In this document: positions 1 through 7,065 of the stretch, in pieces
How the letters are laid out: each line of letters opens with the position of its first letter
Position numbering within the stretch: the stretch's first letter is position 1
From: Rodentibacter genomosp. 1
GTDB taxonomy: Bacteria > Pseudomonadota > Gammaproteobacteria > Enterobacterales > Pasteurellaceae
Reading direction: 5' to 3'
Assembly (NCBI RefSeq): GCF_001999285.1
Contig: NZ_MLHN01000010.1
Coordinates: forward strand, 1-64,000
DNA: 64,000 nt
Notes under the pieces: generated by a model
The model's input: only the letters and a program-made list of their open reading frames with translations
Database searches by the model: none
What the model was told of the DNA's origin: nothing
Made by a program: the position numbers and the translations under genes

Positions 1-100
1 TCTTGATTTTGCTTTAGGTTATAAAATCGCAAAATATTTTGCATAAAATCTAATTTTATTTTGCACAAGCAATTTCTAACTTTTATGCAAAATAAATCCT
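1..100. other. Prophage right-end region with transposase-site-like motifs
   Basis: AT-rich non-coding DNA left of the last prophage gene. TTTTGC motifs begin near 7, 37 and 59 and an inverted TTATGCAAAA sits near 82. Similar TTTTGCAT/TTATGCAAA motifs occur at the other prophage end (36990-37155). Mu-type phages carry three transposase A sites at each end, so these are candidate R sites. No terminal TG plus 5-bp target duplication can be matched to the other end, so the exact boundary is at or before base 1. Confidence 0.45.
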
Positions 101-160
101 CATTTTAAGGAAACAAAAACGCCCTTTAAATCATCATTAAAGGGCGTTTAAATTTTAAAG
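101..160. repeat. Phased TTTAAA array 1 (prophage right end)
   Basis: TTTAAA/TTAAAG boxes are centred near 127.5, 138.5 and 149.5, i.e. exactly 11 bp apart, with flanking TTTTAA boxes near 106 and 156. The array overlaps the operon terminator, so part of the symmetry is shared with that hairpin. Member of the prophage-wide set described in the findings. Confidence 0.5.
118..148 (-). terminator. Terminator after the prophage modification operon
   Basis: Perfect 12-bp inverted repeat (AACGCCCTTTAA / TTAAAGGGCGTT) around a 7-nt loop, followed on the minus strand by a T-rich tract. It lies just downstream of the last minus-strand gene and overlaps a TTTAAA array. Confidence 0.85.
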
Positions 161-161
161 A

Positions 162-1007
162 CTAAAACTTATAAACCAAATTGTCCTCATATTTGCCGTT
201 GTGGCTCGTTCTTGTCTGTAACGTTATTCGTTCATAATCTTCAAATGCCTGCCAGTTTTGCCATTTATCCTCAATCATTGCATCAATAAATCGGGTAAAC
301 TCGCTTTTCGTTGAGCTAAAAAAGAGATACGGTGGGCGGGTCAGATGTATTAACCACAAGAAGTCAATCAAGTCAAAATAAGCCGCTTGCTTATAGCTTT
401 CTTGCTTTGTGCAAAGATACGGTGGATCTAACACAAACAGAGCTTTCGGATTATCTGAATACTTAGGAAGTAGTGTATGAAATGATTCTCTAATCACCTC
501 CACGCCGTCTAAATAACCGTCAGCCTTTGGATAATCACTTTGCCGAATGCTGTGCCAAAAGTCTTTACTAAATAGCTCATCCAGTGTGCTGACTTGATTG
601 CCGCTAAACAACAACCAACTTGATAGGCTATTTAAGTCTTTATAGCCCTCAAAATCTTGAATGATTTTGATGCATTCTGCTTTCACTTCCTTAGGCATTC
701 GCTTATTTTTAGGCGTAACATTATCAACTGTGTCGAAAAGTTGGGCGCGCAAGGCGTTGATGTCATCAATATGCGCTAATCTTTCTGCATAGCCATCAAA
801 GTCATTGTAAATCACCCTCGCTTTAGGTTTGAGGCATTTTGCGGTATGGCTAAGTAAACCACTGCCGCCGAACGTATCAATAATTGTCCAACCTTCTCCA
901 TCATCGGAGATATTTTCATTTAGGATTTGTTCAACATGTTTCAAAAACATCCGTTTTTGACCGACAAACGGGAGAGGGGCTTGTTTAAATAATTTCTTTT
1001 GTGTCAT
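162..1007 (-). CDS. Dam-like (D12 class) N6-adenine DNA methyltransferase
   Basis: A 281-aa protein with an N-terminal PFVGQKR motif (about 13-19), a glycine-rich FGGSG SAM-binding motif (46-50) and the catalytic DPPY (194-197). This order is typical of D12-class adenine methyltransferases. It probably methylates phage DNA to evade host restriction. It overlaps the end of the upstream methyltransferase gene by 23 nt, so the two are probably co-translated, and it is the last gene before the prophage right end, the position of mom in Mu. The target sequence cannot be read from the protein. Confidence 0.8.
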   Translation of the reverse strand: MTQKKLFKQAPLPFVGQKRMFLKHVEQILNENISDDGEGWTIIDTFGGSGLLSHTAKCLKPKARVIYNDFDGYAERLAHIDDINALRAQLFDTVDNVTPKNKRMPKEVKAECIKIIQDFEGYKDLNSLSSWLLFSGNQVSTLDELFSKDFWHSIRQSDYPKADGYLDGVEVIRESFHTLLPKYSDNPKALFVLDPPYLCTKQESYKQAAYFDLIDFLWLIHLTRPPYLFFSSTKSEFTRFIDAMIEDKWQNWQAFEDYERITLQTRTSHNGKYEDNLVYKF

Positions 1008-1746
1008 TTGTACTGTCCTGTAAATATTGAATAATCTGTGGATAGATTTCTTTTAATAGGGCAAGAGGGATGTTAGAACGCTCGTTATAATCCCCTCTAA
1101 ACATTTCCCATGTCACTTTAGAAGGAAATCCCTGACGGCTTAATCGCAATGAAATGTTGCTTTTAAACTTGGTTGGCTTTTTCACAATGTAGCCATAGTC
1201 GCTGTAATAAGTCAGGTTATCAAAGGGGATACCAAAGCCTAGAATATGCTCAATGTAATCCCATATTCGACCGAAAGCGGGATTTTCGATAATATAAATC
1301 TTGGGTTGATAACGCTTGATAATTTCAATGGTGTTATAAATACACAGTTCACCATTTATCCGATTTAAAAAAGAGCGGTCGTAATTAAATCGGGCTTTGG
1401 TGTAATCGGCACGCTTTCTGATGCGAAAATGACTTGGTGTAGGTTTTATCTGTCGCCAACAGGCATTACCGTTTTTCATTCCGCTGGCAAGTGACCAACT
1501 CTCACAAGGCGGACTAGCTAGAATGACATCCGGTTTTGGTAGCCGGTCTAATGTTTTAAATAAGGTATGATTGCCGAATAAACGGGAATAATCACCTAAG
1601 TTAAGCGAGATAAAATGCTGATTTTTTCGCTTAATATCAATGCCAATGGGATAAATTTGCATTTGAGGGAAGGCTTTAGCCGCTTGGGTATAACACCCGT
1701 TACCACTATCAAACAAAGCCCAAACAATTATTTTTTTCTTTGCCAT
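985..1746 (-). CDS. C5-cytosine-methyltransferase-like protein (mom position)
   Basis: 253 aa. An N-terminal LFDSGNG resembles C5-methyltransferase motif I; a PC-containing SPPC (78-81) matches the catalytic-cysteine motif IV; ENP (154-156) matches motif VI (normally ENV). It is shorter than classical C5 enzymes and a separate target-recognition domain is not evident, so specificity is unknown. The ATG at 1746 follows GGAGAAAACT, and both SD and start lie in a perfect hairpin (1741-1763) directly downstream of a com homologue. This suggests Com-dependent translation as for mom in Mu. Confidence 0.65.
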   Translation of the reverse strand: MAKKKIIVWALFDSGNGCYTQAAKAFPQMQIYPIGIDIKRKNQHFISLNLGDYSRLFGNHTLFKTLDRLPKPDVILASPPCESWSLASGMKNGNACWRQIKPTPSHFRIRKRADYTKARFNYDRSFLNRINGELCIYNTIEIIKRYQPKIYIIENPAFGRIWDYIEHILGFGIPFDNLTYYSDYGYIVKKPTKFKSNISLRLSRQGFPSKVTWEMFRGDYNERSNIPLALLKEIYPQIIQYLQDSTNDTKEII

Positions 1747-1763
1747 AGTTTTCTCCTATGGCA
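1741..1763 (-). promoter_or_regulatory. Translation-inhibitory hairpin over the methyltransferase start
   Basis: Perfect 8-bp arms TGCCATAG / CTATGGCA with a 7-nt loop. On the mRNA the 3' arm holds the AUG, and the AGGAG SD spans the 5' arm and loop, so the folded form should hide the ribosome site. The position and logic match the mom translation-inhibitor stem-loop that Com opens in Mu. Regulation by Com is inferred. Confidence 0.7.
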
Positions 1764-1798
1764 TTCCGGCACTCAAGGTGCTCCGATACTCAAATTAG

Positions 1799-1915
1799 TT
1801 AAAATTGGTTTAATGTTTTACAACGAACACATTTAATTTCTAGGCGTTGTACATTTTCTGCTCGTGCTAGTAGTTTTTTACAGCACTTGCACCGGATTTC
1901 TTTTAATTTTTGCAT
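1799..1915 (-). CDS. com: Com-like zinc-finger translational regulator
   Basis: A 38-aa protein beginning MQKLKEIRC, with a CKCC cluster near residues 9-12 and CVRC at 29-32, i.e. the paired-cysteine zinc finger of Mu Com. Com binds mom mRNA and melts a hairpin that hides its start. Here com ends 52 nt before a methyltransferase gene whose start is in just such a hairpin. A GGGA element lies 9 nt before the ATG. Size, cysteine spacing and position at the prophage right end all agree. Confidence 0.85.
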   Translation of the reverse strand: MQKLKEIRCKCCKKLLARAENVQRLEIKCVRCKTLNQF

Positions 1916-2048
1916 ATCAGCATTTCCCACTTTTCATGGTTTTGTTAAAATCCGCACGCCTCGCGAGGCAGGCGGCAGATGGCTATATGCAAGCGTGGAT
2001 TGCGTAGCCGGCACAATGGGTGTTGCTGCACCCACTGTGTCGCCGTCT
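1916..2048. promoter_or_regulatory. Region upstream of com with an inverted repeat
   Basis: About 130 nt without a convincing gene. It contains an 11-bp inverted repeat with one mismatch (CACAATGGGTG at 2012-2022, CACCCACTGTG at 2029-2039) and a CCTCGCGAGG palindrome near 1961. By position it would hold the counterpart of Mu Pmom and/or the terminator of the preceding tail operon, but there is no T-run and no clear -10. Confidence 0.35.
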
Positions 2049-2513
2049 TCACTTTTTGAAAATAATTGCTAAGTCATTTGGGCTAAACCTCCATCCATTG
2101 TTACTGTTTTTAATCGCATTAAAACACCATTCCGAGCAAAAATATTTTGAGCGTTTTTGTTTAATCCCAAACACAATCCCCAACACGCCCCACCAATCGT
2201 ATTTCGCCCCTAAAGTGCGGTTAAAATAGGCGTTGATTTGGGTTTCGGTGACATTTTCAAGCGGGATTAAATCCCACTTGGTGCTGTCGGCTACATTGAT
2301 TCGCTTGCAACGCACACCGCCGTCTCTTGGGCTTGAGGAATAGCAGTCATAAACAGGGCGATAGTCATATTGTCCCCATTGCTCTAATCGCTCAATCGCA
2401 ATTTCACAGTGGGAATATTGTCCTTTGGTAAAGAGGCAAATAATCTTATCTTGCAGGCGTTCAAAGCGGCTTTTAGCCTTGCCTTTGTAAAGTGCCAAAT
2501 AAAGCTTAGCCAT
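2049..2513 (-). CDS. Permuted papain-like (YiiX/NlpC-P60-type) hydrolase
   Basis: 154 aa. A histidine in YSHCE (H35) comes before a cysteine in FCSEW (C126), the His-before-Cys order of the permuted NlpC/P60 (YiiX-like) cysteine hydrolases; a GAKYD motif (102-106) lies between. Family members act on amide bonds in peptidoglycan or lipids. Its place just after the tail-fibre assembly gene (8-nt overlap) suggests a late accessory role, perhaps in cell-envelope entry or lysis. The substrate is unknown. Confidence 0.55.
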   Translation of the reverse strand: MAKLYLALYKGKAKSRFERLQDKIICLFTKGQYSHCEIAIERLEQWGQYDYRPVYDCYSSSPRDGGVRCKRINVADSTKWDLIPLENVTETQINAYFNRTLGAKYDWWGVLGIVFGIKQKRSKYFCSEWCFNAIKNSNNGWRFSPNDLAIIFKK

Positions 2514-3231
2514 TATTTACCTCCGCTAAATGTTGTTGATAGGTTGTCGACCAACCGATAGACCAGTCATAATCCTCGGGATTTTCGGCTTGATCTAACA
2601 AAATCTTGTGCATATAGGCATTTTCAAACATTTGTTCCTTGAGCGTTTTTACGGCATCCCAAACAGCTTTGAATTGTTCAAAATCAATGTGTTGAGCCGT
2701 ATTATCCGCACAAATCAGCGTGTAATGCCCGTCTTTGCCGTTTAAGTCAAAATCGGCTTTAATTTCAACCAATGTTGCGCGACCTTTTTCGTCACTATCT
2801 ACCCATTTGTCGATAAGGGCGACATAAGCCCCACCGTTTACACATTCATCCCGTTTAGCGTTGATTTTTTCACGTACTGCCGCCCGTTGTTCGGTTAAAA
2901 GTGCGGTCAGTTTTTCCTGCACTTCTGCCCCTGTCAGTTTTAGCCATTTTTTCTTGTCACTGTCCCATTTGTGGTTATCTGACGGACATCTGCCCGAATA
3001 ACATAATTGGCCGTTTTCTTCCCAGACTTCACCGCCACCGGTGATACTGGCTGAAATAGCGTTAATTTCTTCTTGGGTTTCGACTGCGAACCAACCCTCA
3101 CCCGATGTTATGTATTGTAACTTGCCAGCAGTCGCTGACGGCGGTGAAGATAAAATCGGTTCACCTTTGTCATCAACTAATAAAATCGGGTCATCAAAAG
3201 CACTTGTTTCTAAATGATATTGTTTTAGCAT
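2506..3231 (-). CDS. Tail-fibre assembly-like protein with DUF4376-type C-terminus
   Basis: 241 aa directly downstream of the tail-fibre gene. The N-terminal part has the short phrases of tail-fibre assembly/chaperone proteins (GEGWFAVETQEE near 45-56). From about residue 115 the sequence (INAKRDECVNGG onward) fits the DUF4376 domain found in fibre-associated proteins of Mu-like phages. It probably helps fold or attach the fibre. Its 3' end overlaps the next gene by 8 nt. Confidence 0.6.
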   Translation of the reverse strand: MLKQYHLETSAFDDPILLVDDKGEPILSSPPSATAGKLQYITSGEGWFAVETQEEINAISASITGGGEVWEENGQLCYSGRCPSDNHKWDSDKKKWLKLTGAEVQEKLTALLTEQRAAVREKINAKRDECVNGGAYVALIDKWVDSDEKGRATLVEIKADFDLNGKDGHYTLICADNTAQHIDFEQFKAVWDAVKTLKEQMFENAYMHKILLDQAENPEDYDWSIGWSTTYQQHLAEVNNG

Positions 3232-3240
3232 GATTGTTCC

Positions 3241-5409
3241 CTATACATTCTTAAACCCAATGACTAATACATTACAGTGTGTATCGCCTCTACCACCGAT
3301 ATTGATTCGGTTTCCGCCTAAAAATTGTCCTCTAGCAACACCAACACCACCGTTGCCCCTATCAACGGCAAAGACCACTCCAAAGCCGTCATAAGATTCC
3401 GGCAAAATAAGTTCACGGTTAGCAAAAGTGGTTTGCATAATCGTAATCATCAACCCCAAATGGCGGATTTTATACACTTCTGCCCCTGCGTAATGTTGAG
3501 GGTAGTAGGTGCGGATAAAATCGGTGCGTTTGATGAAAAACTCATGCAACAAGCCATAATAGTGGCTCCAAAGTGTTCCATCTTGATTGACTCTAAAACC
3601 CGTAATGCGACGGTCTTGATTTTTGTCGCCATCCGGTGTCACTAAAATACTTGCTGTTGCCCCACCATTTGCTGTTGCATTAATGTGGATTCCACCTTTG
3701 TTAATTTTATTGGCTTGGAAACAAGCATCATAATGCACTGCGGTACCAATACGGCTACCTTTATTAATCAGGGCAATGCCGGCATTGCCATGATGCCCAT
3801 CAGCCTCATCTTCAATGATGAGTTTCCCCGTCATCGTATCGCCACTTTTGTTGACGTTATCCAAGCCATCTACCCGTTGCCATGCTGTCCAACCGTTTTG
3901 TGTTTTGTTACGCACATATTTTCGGTGGCGGTTGTGCTGATACAGGGTATATTCTTGTTGCACCCCATAAGCAGATTTTGTGACCAACAAACTCCCCGCG
4001 ATAGGTTCCGGATAATGTCGTTCCGGGGTTGCATTGCTGTTACCATTTTGCCCGTATGCGCCCGGCGTGGTGATATTATTTAAATCTTCATGGGTCAATA
4101 ACTTATTCTCCCAATGGGATTTCACCCACTCTTTCGCCGCATTGACTGTATTACTTACAAAACGGCGTACCCAAAAGGTGTTGGGTACTTGGTCGTTGTT
4201 GGCATTGTCTGCCGGTGCAGTGGCTTTGATGGTGCCGCTGACTTGGAGCAAATCACGTGTGTTATCGGTTCCGCTACCGATGACAACATTATTGGTAGCC
4301 GTAAATCCTTTTAAAAAATACTTATATTGTTGTGCCGAATTCCAAGCGCCAATTTCAAAAGTGATATTTTTGTCTGCAAGTAATATCGTCTTGAGCATTG
4401 ACTTAGGTACACTGTCGCCCTCTCCCGCTCGGGAGATGATTTCTGCGATGCCTTTTTGTTGGACACTATCTGCCGCCATATCGACAGATTGATCTATCAT
4501 GTGCATATACGGCGTAAAGCGTGCCTCGTTACGACGGATAACGACACGATAATTACTTTCGAGACTACGGGCAAAGACGGTATCACGGGGGACTTTTCCC
4601 TCCGCATTCAATTTAACCTCTTCATACCACGACAGAGGGAAGGTGTCCCGATTCCAATCGGCCCTTGCTGTAAAGGTGCGGTTGAGATAAATATAATGAC
4701 AGTGGATAAGGGAATAAGCCCCCATGACAGCAATGTCTAATTGCACAGGGCTTTTGTCATTAAGCGGTAAATTTGTGATTGTACTTATTGCATTGTTATG
4801 AAGACCCAACTGATAATACCCCGTCCCCTTGTAAACACTGCCTATCTCCGCAATCCAGTGTGCTTTTATTGATAAATCAAAGGTCACCGCTACACCACCG
4901 GCTTTTACATTGACTTTGTAAAAATTCAGTGGCGTGACTTTATCATTGACGGCTTTTACCGCAGCGGAAGTCGCCACCGTATCGCTACTTGCACTGTCCA
5001 CCGCATTGGATTTTTTGCTGTTGGGGATGTAGTTCGCAAGGTTTCGGGTGAGGCTGTCAATCAAGGCTTTTAAAGCTTTCCCGGCTTTTTGAGTCAACCC
5101 CAAGACTTCACTCTCACCATTGTAATTATTGGTCAGCTGCACTTCACCTTTTTGGCTAATACCGGCAGAAAGGCGATTATCCTCAATAATCTTCAAAATC
5201 GCTTGATATAACTGTGTTTGTGTTTCAGCTTTTGGCTTAAATCCGGCTCGTTGCAGCACATAATGGGCTTCCGCTTGTACGTCACGCACTCTGTCTTGCA
5301 CATCATTCAGCCATGTATCTGTAACACGAGTGCCCTGTTCGCCGGTTGCCGGATTGCCATTATGAAAACGCTTGTCGGCAGAATTAATTTCAGGTAATAA
5401 AGTTTTCAT
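3241..5409 (-). CDS. Tail fibre protein (Mu gpS-like)
   Basis: 722 aa from the ATG at 5409. I chose this over an upstream start because GAGAT precedes it and the previous gene ends only a base or two away. The N-terminus (MKTLLPEINSADKRFHNGNP) is the conserved baseplate-attachment part of phage fibres; the long middle is low-complexity fibre sequence with SGDTMTGKL, a common fibre repeat; the glycine-rich C-terminus should contain the receptor tip. No Gin invertase or inverted repeats were seen, so the Mu-type fibre switch seems absent. Confidence 0.8.
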   Translation of the reverse strand: MKTLLPEINSADKRFHNGNPATGEQGTRVTDTWLNDVQDRVRDVQAEAHYVLQRAGFKPKAETQTQLYQAILKIIEDNRLSAGISQKGEVQLTNNYNGESEVLGLTQKAGKALKALIDSLTRNLANYIPNSKKSNAVDSASSDTVATSAAVKAVNDKVTPLNFYKVNVKAGGVAVTFDLSIKAHWIAEIGSVYKGTGYYQLGLHNNAISTITNLPLNDKSPVQLDIAVMGAYSLIHCHYIYLNRTFTARADWNRDTFPLSWYEEVKLNAEGKVPRDTVFARSLESNYRVVIRRNEARFTPYMHMIDQSVDMAADSVQQKGIAEIISRAGEGDSVPKSMLKTILLADKNITFEIGAWNSAQQYKYFLKGFTATNNVVIGSGTDNTRDLLQVSGTIKATAPADNANNDQVPNTFWVRRFVSNTVNAAKEWVKSHWENKLLTHEDLNNITTPGAYGQNGNSNATPERHYPEPIAGSLLVTKSAYGVQQEYTLYQHNRHRKYVRNKTQNGWTAWQRVDGLDNVNKSGDTMTGKLIIEDEADGHHGNAGIALINKGSRIGTAVHYDACFQANKINKGGIHINATANGGATASILVTPDGDKNQDRRITGFRVNQDGTLWSHYYGLLHEFFIKRTDFIRTYYPQHYAGAEVYKIRHLGLMITIMQTTFANRELILPESYDGFGVVFAVDRGNGGVGVARGQFLGGNRINIGGRGDTHCNVLVIGFKNV

Positions 5410-5410
5410 T

Positions 5411-6001
5411 TTAATTATCTCTATAAGCAAAATAGCAATAAGTGTGAGCCGGTTTTAAATCCTTGAAAAATTCCTCAATAATCGGATCACCAAACTCCAC
5501 TAAATGATTACCGGCAAAGGACTGACCGGCACGAAAATACACGATATTGTCATCACCGTTTAACACATCCACCCGCCACATAAAAATAAGATTTTCATTC
5601 GGCTCATTGCGGAACTGAACAATATCACCGGGGTTAGGTAAATCATTTTTTAACGGAGAAAACTCCTTAATTTCAATCCGATAACCAATACTTTCCGCAA
5701 TACGTGTAAAATAAGGGATAGACAAACCGCCCACGGCGTTAAGCTGAATGATGACCCGTTTAACCCGCTCTTGATAGCTTTTAGAAAAATCCGTTTTAAT
5801 GCCGCATAACCGTTCCCAATCTGCAAGCATTGAATTTGATGTTGCAGGCTCAATCACGCCCAACATTTCAACCGCACTTTGTTGCAGACGGTCAAATGCG
5901 TTTCCATCCACTTCACATTGTGCTAAAAAACGTTCACCATTGACGTTATAAGAAACCGGCGGATAGAGCTGTGAAAGCACGTTTTTATGCTCAATTTGCA
6001 T
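5411..6001 (-). CDS. Tail protein, Mu gp48-like (DUF2313)
   Basis: 196 aa from the ATG in TAATG, overlapping the stop of the baseplate J gene by one base. It begins MQIEHKNVLSQLYPP. The length, composition and place between the baseplate J-like gene and the tail fibre fit the DUF2313/YmfQ family (gp48 of Mu), which links the baseplate to fibre attachment. Confidence 0.75.
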   Translation of the reverse strand: MQIEHKNVLSQLYPPVSYNVNGERFLAQCEVDGNAFDRLQQSAVEMLGVIEPATSNSMLADWERLCGIKTDFSKSYQERVKRVIIQLNAVGGLSIPYFTRIAESIGYRIEIKEFSPLKNDLPNPGDIVQFRNEPNENLIFMWRVDVLNGDDNIVYFRAGQSFAGNHLVEFGDPIIEEFFKDLKPAHTYCYFAYRDN

Positions 6002-7065
6002 TATTCCATCTCCGTTACTGTCACCGTCCCTAACCGAAACCACTCAATTTTATTGATAACATCTGCCTTACGGTTCGTTGTCGGGGCGGTAAATTTACGG
6101 TCAACCACACCGATAAGATTGTTTACCACGGCTTCGCATTGCGACACGATTAAATCGTCACCGGGGATAAGCGTGTTAAAGTAATCGGAAAGCGCAGTCT
6201 GAATAGCCGTCCGAATTTCGGTAAGCGTCACCCCACTGATTTTCACTTTTATCGTAAAATTGACCTTCGTGACATCGGGTTTCACTACTTTGCTTTCTCT
6301 TGCCGTGACCGGGCGAACATCATCAATATAGGCTTGGCAACGGCGTACCGTTTCATCACTAGGTACGTTATTATTAGACGTAATGGCAATATCTACCGTG
6401 CCTAAGCCTCGGCGCAAGGGATAAACATAAGCGGCATCCACGCCATCAACAGACAATGCCCAAGTTCGGTAATCATAACGATTTCCACCGGCAGGCGGTC
6501 GGCGAATAATCTCAAGCAAACGTTCAAGCAAAGATGAATCGCTTTCGGCATCTGTTGCCCCAATCACCTCATTTAACGTCAAATCCGTTTGAACTCCCAC
6601 GGGAGCGGCCATAAAACTAGCCGGCGTTGTGCGGTTAATATTTTGAGTTGCTCCCGTGGCAAGGCTACGCACCGATACCACAACCGAACCTGTGGCAGAA
6701 ATCACCGCACTTTCGGTGGTTTCATAAAAGCGGTTATCTTCCGTTTTGATTTGTAACCCGGCTTTAATCACCGCATCAGGCTGACCGATGATGGTTGCCG
6801 CACGTCCGCTTGCGTAAGTCGCATTTCTGCGGCGAATCCCACGTAGACCTGCGTGTTTTTCAAGAAATGCCGTGTCTGCGGTATCTGGAAAGAATTGTTT
6901 GATTATCCATTTTTGATGCGCATAAAGACCTTCAGCGACAGCCGAAAGACTACTTGCACGGGCATAATAATCGCTATCTACGCTAATATCGGCTTGCGGC
7001 TCAAGGGATTGCACATCACGCAAAATGGCTTGGCGGATGTCTTCTAAACTCGGCACAATAAACAT
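6001..7065 (-). CDS. Baseplate J-like protein (Mu gp47)
   Basis: 354 aa. The N-terminal LEDIRQAILRDVQ and the central RPPAGGNRYDYRTWALSVDG segment (about 189-208) are hallmarks of the baseplate J family, wedge proteins of contractile tails. Coupled to the next gene by TAATG. Confidence 0.88.
   Translation of the reverse strand: MFIVPSLEDIRQAILRDVQSLEPQADISVDSDYYARASSLSAVAEGLYAHQKWIIKQFFPDTADTAFLEKHAGLRGIRRRNATYASGRAATIIGQPDAVIKAGLQIKTEDNRFYETTESAVISATGSVVVSVRSLATGATQNINRTTPASFMAAPVGVQTDLTLNEVIGATDAESDSSLLERLLEIIRRPPAGGNRYDYRTWALSVDGVDAAYVYPLRRGLGTVDIAITSNNNVPSDETVRRCQAYIDDVRPVTARESKVVKPDVTKVNFTIKVKISGVTLTEIRTAIQTALSDYFNTLIPGDDLIVSQCEAVVNNLIGVVDRKFTAPTTNRKADVINKIEWFRLGTVTVTEME

Follow-up and report, generated by a model that had tools for sequence, protein, structure and literature searches.

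The window analysed here is a stretch of 64,000 nucleotides (nt) from Rodentibacter genomosp. 1 (contig NZ_MLHN01000010.1), and its low-coordinate end holds, on the minus strand, the right end of a Mu-like prophage. Three genes with intact reading frames, com, dcm and dam, follow one another there. The com gene encodes a small zinc-ribbon protein, and dcm and dam encode proteins that resemble C5-cytosine and N6-adenine DNA methyltransferases, respectively. An RNA element, made up of a Com-box and a hairpin over the dcm start codon, extends from com to the start of dcm. This arrangement is probably a Com-controlled translational switch that has two DNA methyltransferases as cargo instead of Mom. 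A consensus site for Com, covariation within the element, the association of the element with com and the folds of both enzymes provide the computed support. Related loci and genomes are designated below by L and G numbers.

The com product, MQKLKEIRCKCCKKLLARAENVQRLEIKCVRCKTLNQF, matches PF10122 (E 1.7e-9; 37.5 bits against a cut-off of 22.9) and the translational regulator family phrog_6417 (E 7.5e-11). Zinc-binding cysteines C9, C12, C29 and C32 are invariant in a 14-row alignment. Judged by profile and cysteines, the protein is a member of Com, and this bears out the 38-residue Com zinc finger of the original prediction, which had been made from the sequence alone. The C-terminal tail of Mu Com is missing. 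Com proteins are termed tail-less here when they have 30–41 residues from the start of the match, and tail-bearing when they have 61–86. Of 149 relatives, 27 have a PF10122 match, as do 5 of 369 genomes sampled from the class.

The hairpin has a 5′ arm TGCCATAG (1756–1763), a loop GAGAAAA (1749–1755) and a 3′ arm CTATGGCA (1741–1748), which form eight perfect base pairs (bp). The dcm ATG (1744–1746) is within the 3′ arm, and the predicted pairing probability of the AUG is 1.0. The original prediction placed both ATG and Shine-Dalgarno sequence in this hairpin. The eight pairs and the ATG stand, but only one G of the GGAG Shine-Dalgarno is in the stem and the remainder is in the loop. RNA structure prediction, which had been proposed as a check, supports the hairpin: the 71-nt region folds at -18.8 kcal/mol with a z of -4.12, and none of 200 shuffles is as good.

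Directly upstream is the Com-box, GA[GUAU]C-GGA-[GCAC]-CUUGA-[GUGC]-C-GGA-[AUGC]C, a conserved structure that was overlooked when the hairpin was first seen. It has an outer helix (1786–1789/1761–1764), an inner helix (1778–1781/1769–1772) and the loop CUUGA. Systematic evolution of ligands by exponential enrichment (SELEX) with the zinc finger of a prophage Com from Haemophilus sputorum, a Pasteurellaceae species, yielded NGAGNNCC(N)2-3GAGNNCCNN in a short hairpin, the Com-bound part being CC(N)2-3GAG in the loop (PMC6483171). This site was defined in vitro by others, independently of the window sequence. The pattern GAGNNCCN{2,3}GAGNNCC has one match in the 2.35-Mb host assembly, at 1768–1783 on the minus strand, ending 22 nt before the dcm ATG; the reversed pattern, used as a control, has none. 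The covariance model of the whole element, R1, has one real match in the window, and the next best is at E 1.8. At E ≤ 0.01, 42 of 140 Pasteurellaceae genomes have R1 matches, and the weakest of these matches look chance-like. A search of positions 1–6000 against Rfam at E ≤ 5 gave no family at the element and three chance-like matches.

Com-boxes were collected from 127 com–cargo places with 72 distinct sequences, and these were parsed into 46 distinct forms. The parse picks the best-pairing placement and is thus biased toward pairing; it failed for 10 of the 72 elements (L006, L029 and eight with tail-bearing Com). All pairs of the inner helix are formed in 43 of the 46 boxes and all pairs of the outer in 44; the inner arms occur in 18 different combinations. 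In 37 distinct loop-trimmed boxes, 98.3% of cells are paired (85.6 in shuffles, which leave sequence relatedness in place). Double-change cells number 59 as opposed to 19.5 in shuffles, and the covariation score is 0.628 versus 0.357; for each, 0/500 shuffles reach the observed value. When the partner is shifted by one to three columns, pairing falls to 11–69%. The outer helix taken alone is 98.6% paired and has 11 double-change cells versus 1.8 (0/500).

The original prediction also made its case depend on conservation of the hairpin in related phages, and conservation is what is found. After tail-less Com, 46 of 54 distinct starts have at least seven pairs, four have six and one, in a dead gene, has four; three have none. 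For all 62 distinct com–cargo starts the respective numbers are 46, four, one and 11, and tail-bearing Com is present at eight of the 11 hairpin-less starts (L034, L035, L043, L136, L138, L141, L142 and L143). The outer stem varies on both arms, as in CCATAG/CTATGG, CCATAATTTA/TAAATTATGG, CCATAATAG/CTATTATGG and CCATAACA/TGTTATGG. This count of arms leaves out L129 and 12 element rows that lack CCATA (the second copy of L015, L016, L028, L029 and eight with tail-bearing Com). Since the CCATA filter selects for the inner pairs, only the outer positions are informative. The far stem has 18 double-change cells versus 8.0 in shuffles and a score of 0.220 versus 0.106 (0/500 each); it weakens when only the seven shared pairs are scored (7 cells versus 3.3, 4/500). 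At L029 the hairpin is of unrelated sequence and 12 bp long, and its 5′ arm is the Com stem itself.

The two structures compete for the same bases. The 3′ strand of the outer helix and the 5′ arm of the hairpin have three bases in common. For the free RNA, the predicted energy is -16.2 kcal/mol when the inner helix is combined with the full hairpin, and -10.2 when both box helices are combined with a shortened 5-bp hairpin. Six loci have lost the first hairpin pair, and the outer helix is intact in five of these (L010, L012, L013, L230 and L240), the exception being L125. With tail-less Com, 61 of 64 element rows have the nested box.

The element travels with com. A scan with the Dam-like protein gave 125 confirmed loci, and the best 80, chosen blind to com, comprise 43 with com and element, eight with com and no element, and 29 without com. 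The element is thus present at 43 of 51 com-positive and at 0 of 29 com-negative Dam loci. The eight element-less loci have tail-bearing Com in five cases and weak or partial com matches in three (L134, L137 and L139, counted as com). Taken together with the single, correctly placed SELEX site and the covariation, these data sustain the prediction that the Com switch has been kept and its cargo exchanged.

At eighteen of the 29 com-less Dam loci an (AAGC)n, (CAAA)n or poly-G tract lies close to where dam starts (L068, L084, L087, L089, L091, L092, L098, L099, L101, L103–L105, L107, L114, L122 and L126–L128). Three others have short tracts and eight have none, among them L085, which is without upstream sequence. 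Element and tract are found together at none of the 80 loci. The upstream frame continues through the tract into dam in frame in 4 of the 18 (L089, L101, L126 and L127), out of frame in 13 and is unclear in one, a distribution that phase variation would be expected to give. Six of the 18 have another ATG directly after the tract, and there the effect of slipping is less clear. The same alternation is seen for the C5 methyltransferase, which is present in 15 of 140 Pasteurellaceae genomes. Ten have com before the operon in a copy examined (G000, G044, G019, G062, G519, G562, G028, G018, G537 and G009), four have repeats and no com in the preceding 1.5 kb, and one (L231, at a contig end) is undecidable. 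The repeats are (TCAA)15 in L236, (TGCAA)7 in L237 and a degenerate one in L238, all inside the gene, and (AGCA)23 upstream of it in L232. Three of these four genomes are without any com, and G534 has com elsewhere. The loci are related to each other, so the events behind the counts of com, element and repeats are not independent. For one adenine methylase of H. influenzae F3031 an upstream tract has already been published, with no mention of a Mu-like phage in the portion of that paper considered here (PMC2651432).

Both cargo genes are methyltransferase-like, and the cargo is not Mom: neither Mu Mom nor JD024 Mom has a match at E 1e-4 in L225 or L147, both of which contain this locus. The dcm product matches PF00145 over residues 38–89 (E 4.9e-6) and phrog_2882 (E 1.2e-108). 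Its structure model, with a predicted local distance difference test score (pLDDT) of 73, matches the HaeIII methyltransferase (1.6e-6) and aligns with the HhaI methyltransferase over 191 residues (Z 15.0; root-mean-square deviation 3.6). The usual C5-methyltransferase motifs are a catalytic PC and ENV. In the dcm product PPC81 is invariant, and ENP (154–156) takes the place of ENV in all 12 rows, nine of them distinct. By its fold the protein looks like a compact C5-cytosine methyltransferase, presumably a catalytic one. The dam product matches the DNA methyltransferases of phrog_56 (E 2e-41) and no Pfam family at E 0.1. The top eight Foldseek rows for its model (pLDDT 84) are E. coli Dam, and DPPY is invariant in 12 relatives. 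By fold and DPPY it looks like an N6-adenine methyltransferase and probably acts as one. A sequence search of the PDB found no relative of either enzyme. The proposal that two DNA methyltransferases occupy the place of Mom is supported, with one probable C5 and one probable N6 enzyme.

In most loci com is followed by dam alone. The order com–dcm–dam is found in the window and in L047, L006, L018, L125 and L235, and com–dcm with no dam in the stretch of sequence covered in L017, L019 and L178. In L230 and L240 (G562) the order is reversed to com–dam–dcm; a run of 6–7 G between these two genes is possibly a further slip switch. G062 (L015, L228) has com–dcm–com–dam, with a com and a box for each enzyme; the second of these boxes contains one mismatch and lacks a clear hairpin, and the dam downstream of it is frameshifted. 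Loci that have the element have it before the first gene after com, whether dam or dcm. In all 8 com–dcm–dam rows whose start could be resolved, dcm and dam overlap, the overlap being 8, 14 or 23 nt; G062 and the decayed L144 are set aside. L144 (Rodentibacter myodis), the one named relative found in a genome-contig search with the C5 methyltransferase, and L239 are decayed com–dcm–dam operons in several broken frames.

The features of the window locus are collected in Table 1. The 23-nt overlap of dcm and dam (985–1007) agrees with the overlapping Dam-like gene first proposed. The terminator proposed after it was also located, as the strongest of three candidates, with 2.6 expected by chance. 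A viral collection contains the same prophage as a 36.7-kb contig whose last gene is dam. The phrog_1128 label of the gene before com appears doubtful; its product is a 154-residue phage protein with no Pfam match. A second com–box–dam module is present elsewhere in the host assembly (G000:C49:44118-44289, L011).

Table 1. Features at the right end of the Mu-like prophage in the window
Feature	Position	Strand	Basis
com, 38-residue zinc-ribbon RNA-binding protein	1799–1915	-	PF10122, phrog_6417
Com-box RNA	1761–1789	-	SELEX consensus match; covariation in 37 distinct relatives
Start-codon hairpin, 8 bp	1741–1763	-	sequence, fold, conservation
Whole 61-nt RNA element scored by R1	1738–1798	-	75.7 bits, E 1.6e-19
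dcm, C5-cytosine-methyltransferase-like gene, 253 residues, first cargo	985–1746	-	PF00145, phrog_2882, structure model
dam, Dam-like N6-adenine-methyltransferase-like gene, 281 residues, second cargo	162–1007	-	phrog_56, structure model, DPPY
Intrinsic-terminator-like hairpin after operon	117–149	-	13-pair stem, 7-nt loop, U-rich tail
Gene before com	2049–2513	-	phrog_1128, label 'enoyl-CoA hydratase/carnithine racemase-like'
Tail gene	2506–3231	-	
Tail fibre gene	3241–5430	-	
Baseplate gp48	5411–6043	-	

The proposed switch would operate as follows. When Com is absent, the mRNA would fold into the inner Com-box hairpin and the full 8-bp hairpin, the dcm ATG would be buried and dcm would not be translated. 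Com would bind the CC(N)2-3GAG loop of the box and stabilise the outer helix. Since the 3′ strand of this helix doubles as the base of the start hairpin, its formation would peel the hairpin open and ribosomes could enter. The overlapping Dam-like gene may then be translated by coupling. The outcome would be cytosine and adenine methylation of phage DNA after induction, with lysogens spared, and the simplest purpose of such methylation would be protection against restriction, the role that the original prediction put forward together with late timing.

A number of observations weigh against such a switch or against parts of it. A helix of at least eight pairs over the start codon is found at 105 of the 2107 ATGs in the AT-rich window (with G-U allowed and a loop of up to 20); the hairpin alone is thus not decisive, and conservation decides. 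No clear hairpin is present at 3 of the 54 starts after tail-less Com (L015 second copy, L016 and L028). By number of pairs changed on both sides, the covariation is less striking: 7 of 8 box pairs qualify, a number reached by 25/500 shuffles; that of the outer helix is reached by 24/500, and the three hairpin pairs are matched by 422/500. Only the cell counts and covariation scores exceed all shuffles, for box, outer helix and hairpin far stem. The outer helix is predicted to form in free RNA with a probability of about 0.003, so that its role requires Com. It covaries and yet hardly forms unaided, and this suggests a state that exists only with help, for which Com would be the obvious helper. 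One pair of the outer helix and of the hairpin base is missing in L125. The nested box is found at 0 of 21 tail-bearing-Com loci (Mu, Moraxella phages, B3, other Pseudomonas and B3-like), which are a selection and not the full set. One or more four-pair stems with a C...GA loop are present at each of the 21, in most cases two side by side, though stems this short may be chance ones. The correlation between tail and box is imperfect, as the outer helix is missing from L029 in spite of its short Com.

The Com-box is, furthermore, not used only as a start-codon switch. Boxes without a start hairpin occur in some prophage leaders, two of them in com-less genomes. The leader pattern has 15 matches in 11 of 140 genomes, one of which (L310) is not leader-like. 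A leader with a box is found in six genomes, four that have com (G066, G062, G537 and G543) and two in which PF10122 finds none (G556 and G557). The com-less boxes lie in the leader before AntA-type antirepressor genes (by Pfam in two, L277 and L280). In L276, L277, L278, L280, L287, L305 and L306, Com-box-like double helices with no com or start hairpin are ∼180–240 nt before an antirepressor-type gene. Because R1 matched com-less boxes, action of Com in trans on other prophage genes was considered; it is not claimed, as two of the six genomes with a boxed leader are without com. Weak R1 matches (L281, L288, L289, L290 and L292–L294; E 1e-4 to 6e-3) look like chance. L291 has a broken dam near a contig end and a partial element, and no com was found there.

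Coupling of dam is uncertain, as dam has its own AGGAC-like site ∼10 nt before its ATG. Perhaps Com controls the first gene only and the Dam-like gene is translated independently from this ribosome site. The recurrent overlaps in the eight com–dcm–dam rows speak against this, as does G062, where the genes are far apart and dam has a com and box of its own, albeit the defective set described above; such independence seems unlikely. It is also conceivable that the hairpin is a Com-independent device, an RNA thermometer or plain attenuator, with com a mere neighbour, since a hairpin over an ATG can close without protein. The absence of the element from all com-less Dam loci and the presence of the Com SELEX site within it make this very improbable. 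Decayed or broken copies (L144/L239, L024 and L031) might suggest a fossil, a pattern left by shared descent and gene loss with no present function. Compensatory changes on both sides of three helices, the intact frames in the window and repeated exchange of the cargo leave hardly any room for this explanation.

The purpose of the methylation can also be viewed differently. The switch may be real and the methylation regulatory, acting on the phage cycle or the host or excluding other phages, rather than anti-restrictive. Gating of the same enzymes by repeat tracts in com-less relatives, a habit also of epigenetic regulators, is consistent with this; the mom-like location of the genes, at the right end of the phage, speaks against it. 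The window dam product may belong with the Hin1523/Hia5-type enzymes. Enzymes of that type are described as methylating A, AB or BA (PMC5399793) and would mark DNA nearly everywhere, which would also argue against a regulatory role. A regulatory purpose is thus considered rather unlikely.

A Com-controlled switch for two methyltransferases would have several implications. If both enzymes work, phage DNA would bear combined cytosine and adenine marking. Alternation of com and repeats for the same two enzymes suggests that evolution demands strict gating, which two different switches can supply. Com may also serve as a marker, in that a gene after a Com-box probably must stay silent in the lysogen. 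A broader and tentative proposal, which may well not hold, is that the tail-less Com of Pasteurellaceae Mu-like phages drives a strand-exchange, protein-driven riboswitch, a portable gate for DNA-modifying enzymes harmful to the lysogen that is evolutionarily interchangeable with phase-variation tracts. In the open-licence PMC literature, no report was found of a tandem C5 and Dam cargo, of a covarying element whose outer helix and start-codon hairpin compete, or of the com-or-repeats alternation. As far as literature searches reach, the tandem cargo, the two-helix box sharing hairpin bases and the alternation are new.

Replacement of Mom as such is not new. An adenine methyltransferase in the position of mom was reportedly described for Mu-like prophages by Drozdz in 2012 (FluMu hin1523, hia5 and nma1821), and both that work and Morgan's of 2002 are said to have an adenine methyltransferase replacing Mom beside com. 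What remains of the replacement as news in the original prediction is the tandem C5 and Dam cargo. Like the window, FluMu-type prophages and SuMu have a Dam-like gene after com at the right end, that of SuMu being 69% identical to the window dam. In contrast, in the window a C5-methyltransferase-like gene sits between com and dam and takes the hairpin. Outside Pasteurellaceae the C5 methyltransferase is mainly a Firmicutes phage gene: by organism name, 114 of 119 matched phage records are from Streptococcus, Enterococcus or Lactococcus, and these enzymes (phrog_2882) are homologues with 51–59% identity among the 60 of 119 matches listed. At phrog_2882-type loci from viral contigs (L048–L062), com was found in 0 of 15 within the sequence covered.

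Com also precedes unrelated cargo. In Pseudomonas, Com-linked bacteriocin and other genes have been described (PMC6240691), and this cargo, unlike that of the window, is not a DNA modification gene. In Pseudomonas phage Komp_PAO1_1 (L038), com at 3001 is followed by a gene for an ABC-type ATP-binding protein (PF00005, 6.1e-6) with a weak C-terminal acetyltransferase match and then by a formyltransferase gene (PF00551, 3.2e-17), possibly a new DNA-modification cargo. Tail-bearing com stands before a Dam-like gene in L034 and L035 (Moraxella phages, where com is unannotated) and in the similar contigs L136, L138, L141 and L143; Com stem-loops are present in these six, and the helix test found no start hairpin in them.

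The closest known system is the com–mom switch of Mu, and by analogy the window switch may work like it. Both have a Com homologue and a hairpin with the start codon in its 3′ arm, closely preceded by a short stem whose loop reads C...GA; in Mu (L033; PMC6483171) the stem-loop GAAUGCCUGCGAGCAUCCC is followed by a stem with GUG. The window differs in that its cargo is two methyltransferases and that of Mu the Mom acyltransferase, in its tail-less Com, in a com that does not overlap the cargo, and in the extra outer helix with bases common to the hairpin. The 2019 study saw no melting with its truncated Com, and suggests that the C-terminal tail may be needed to open the mom hairpin (PMC6483171). 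For the way in which Com opens this hairpin, the tail-less elements offer dozens of natural variants with compensatory changes and a testable strand-exchange model. If strand exchange is right, RNA would here take over the part suggested for the Com tail in Mu.

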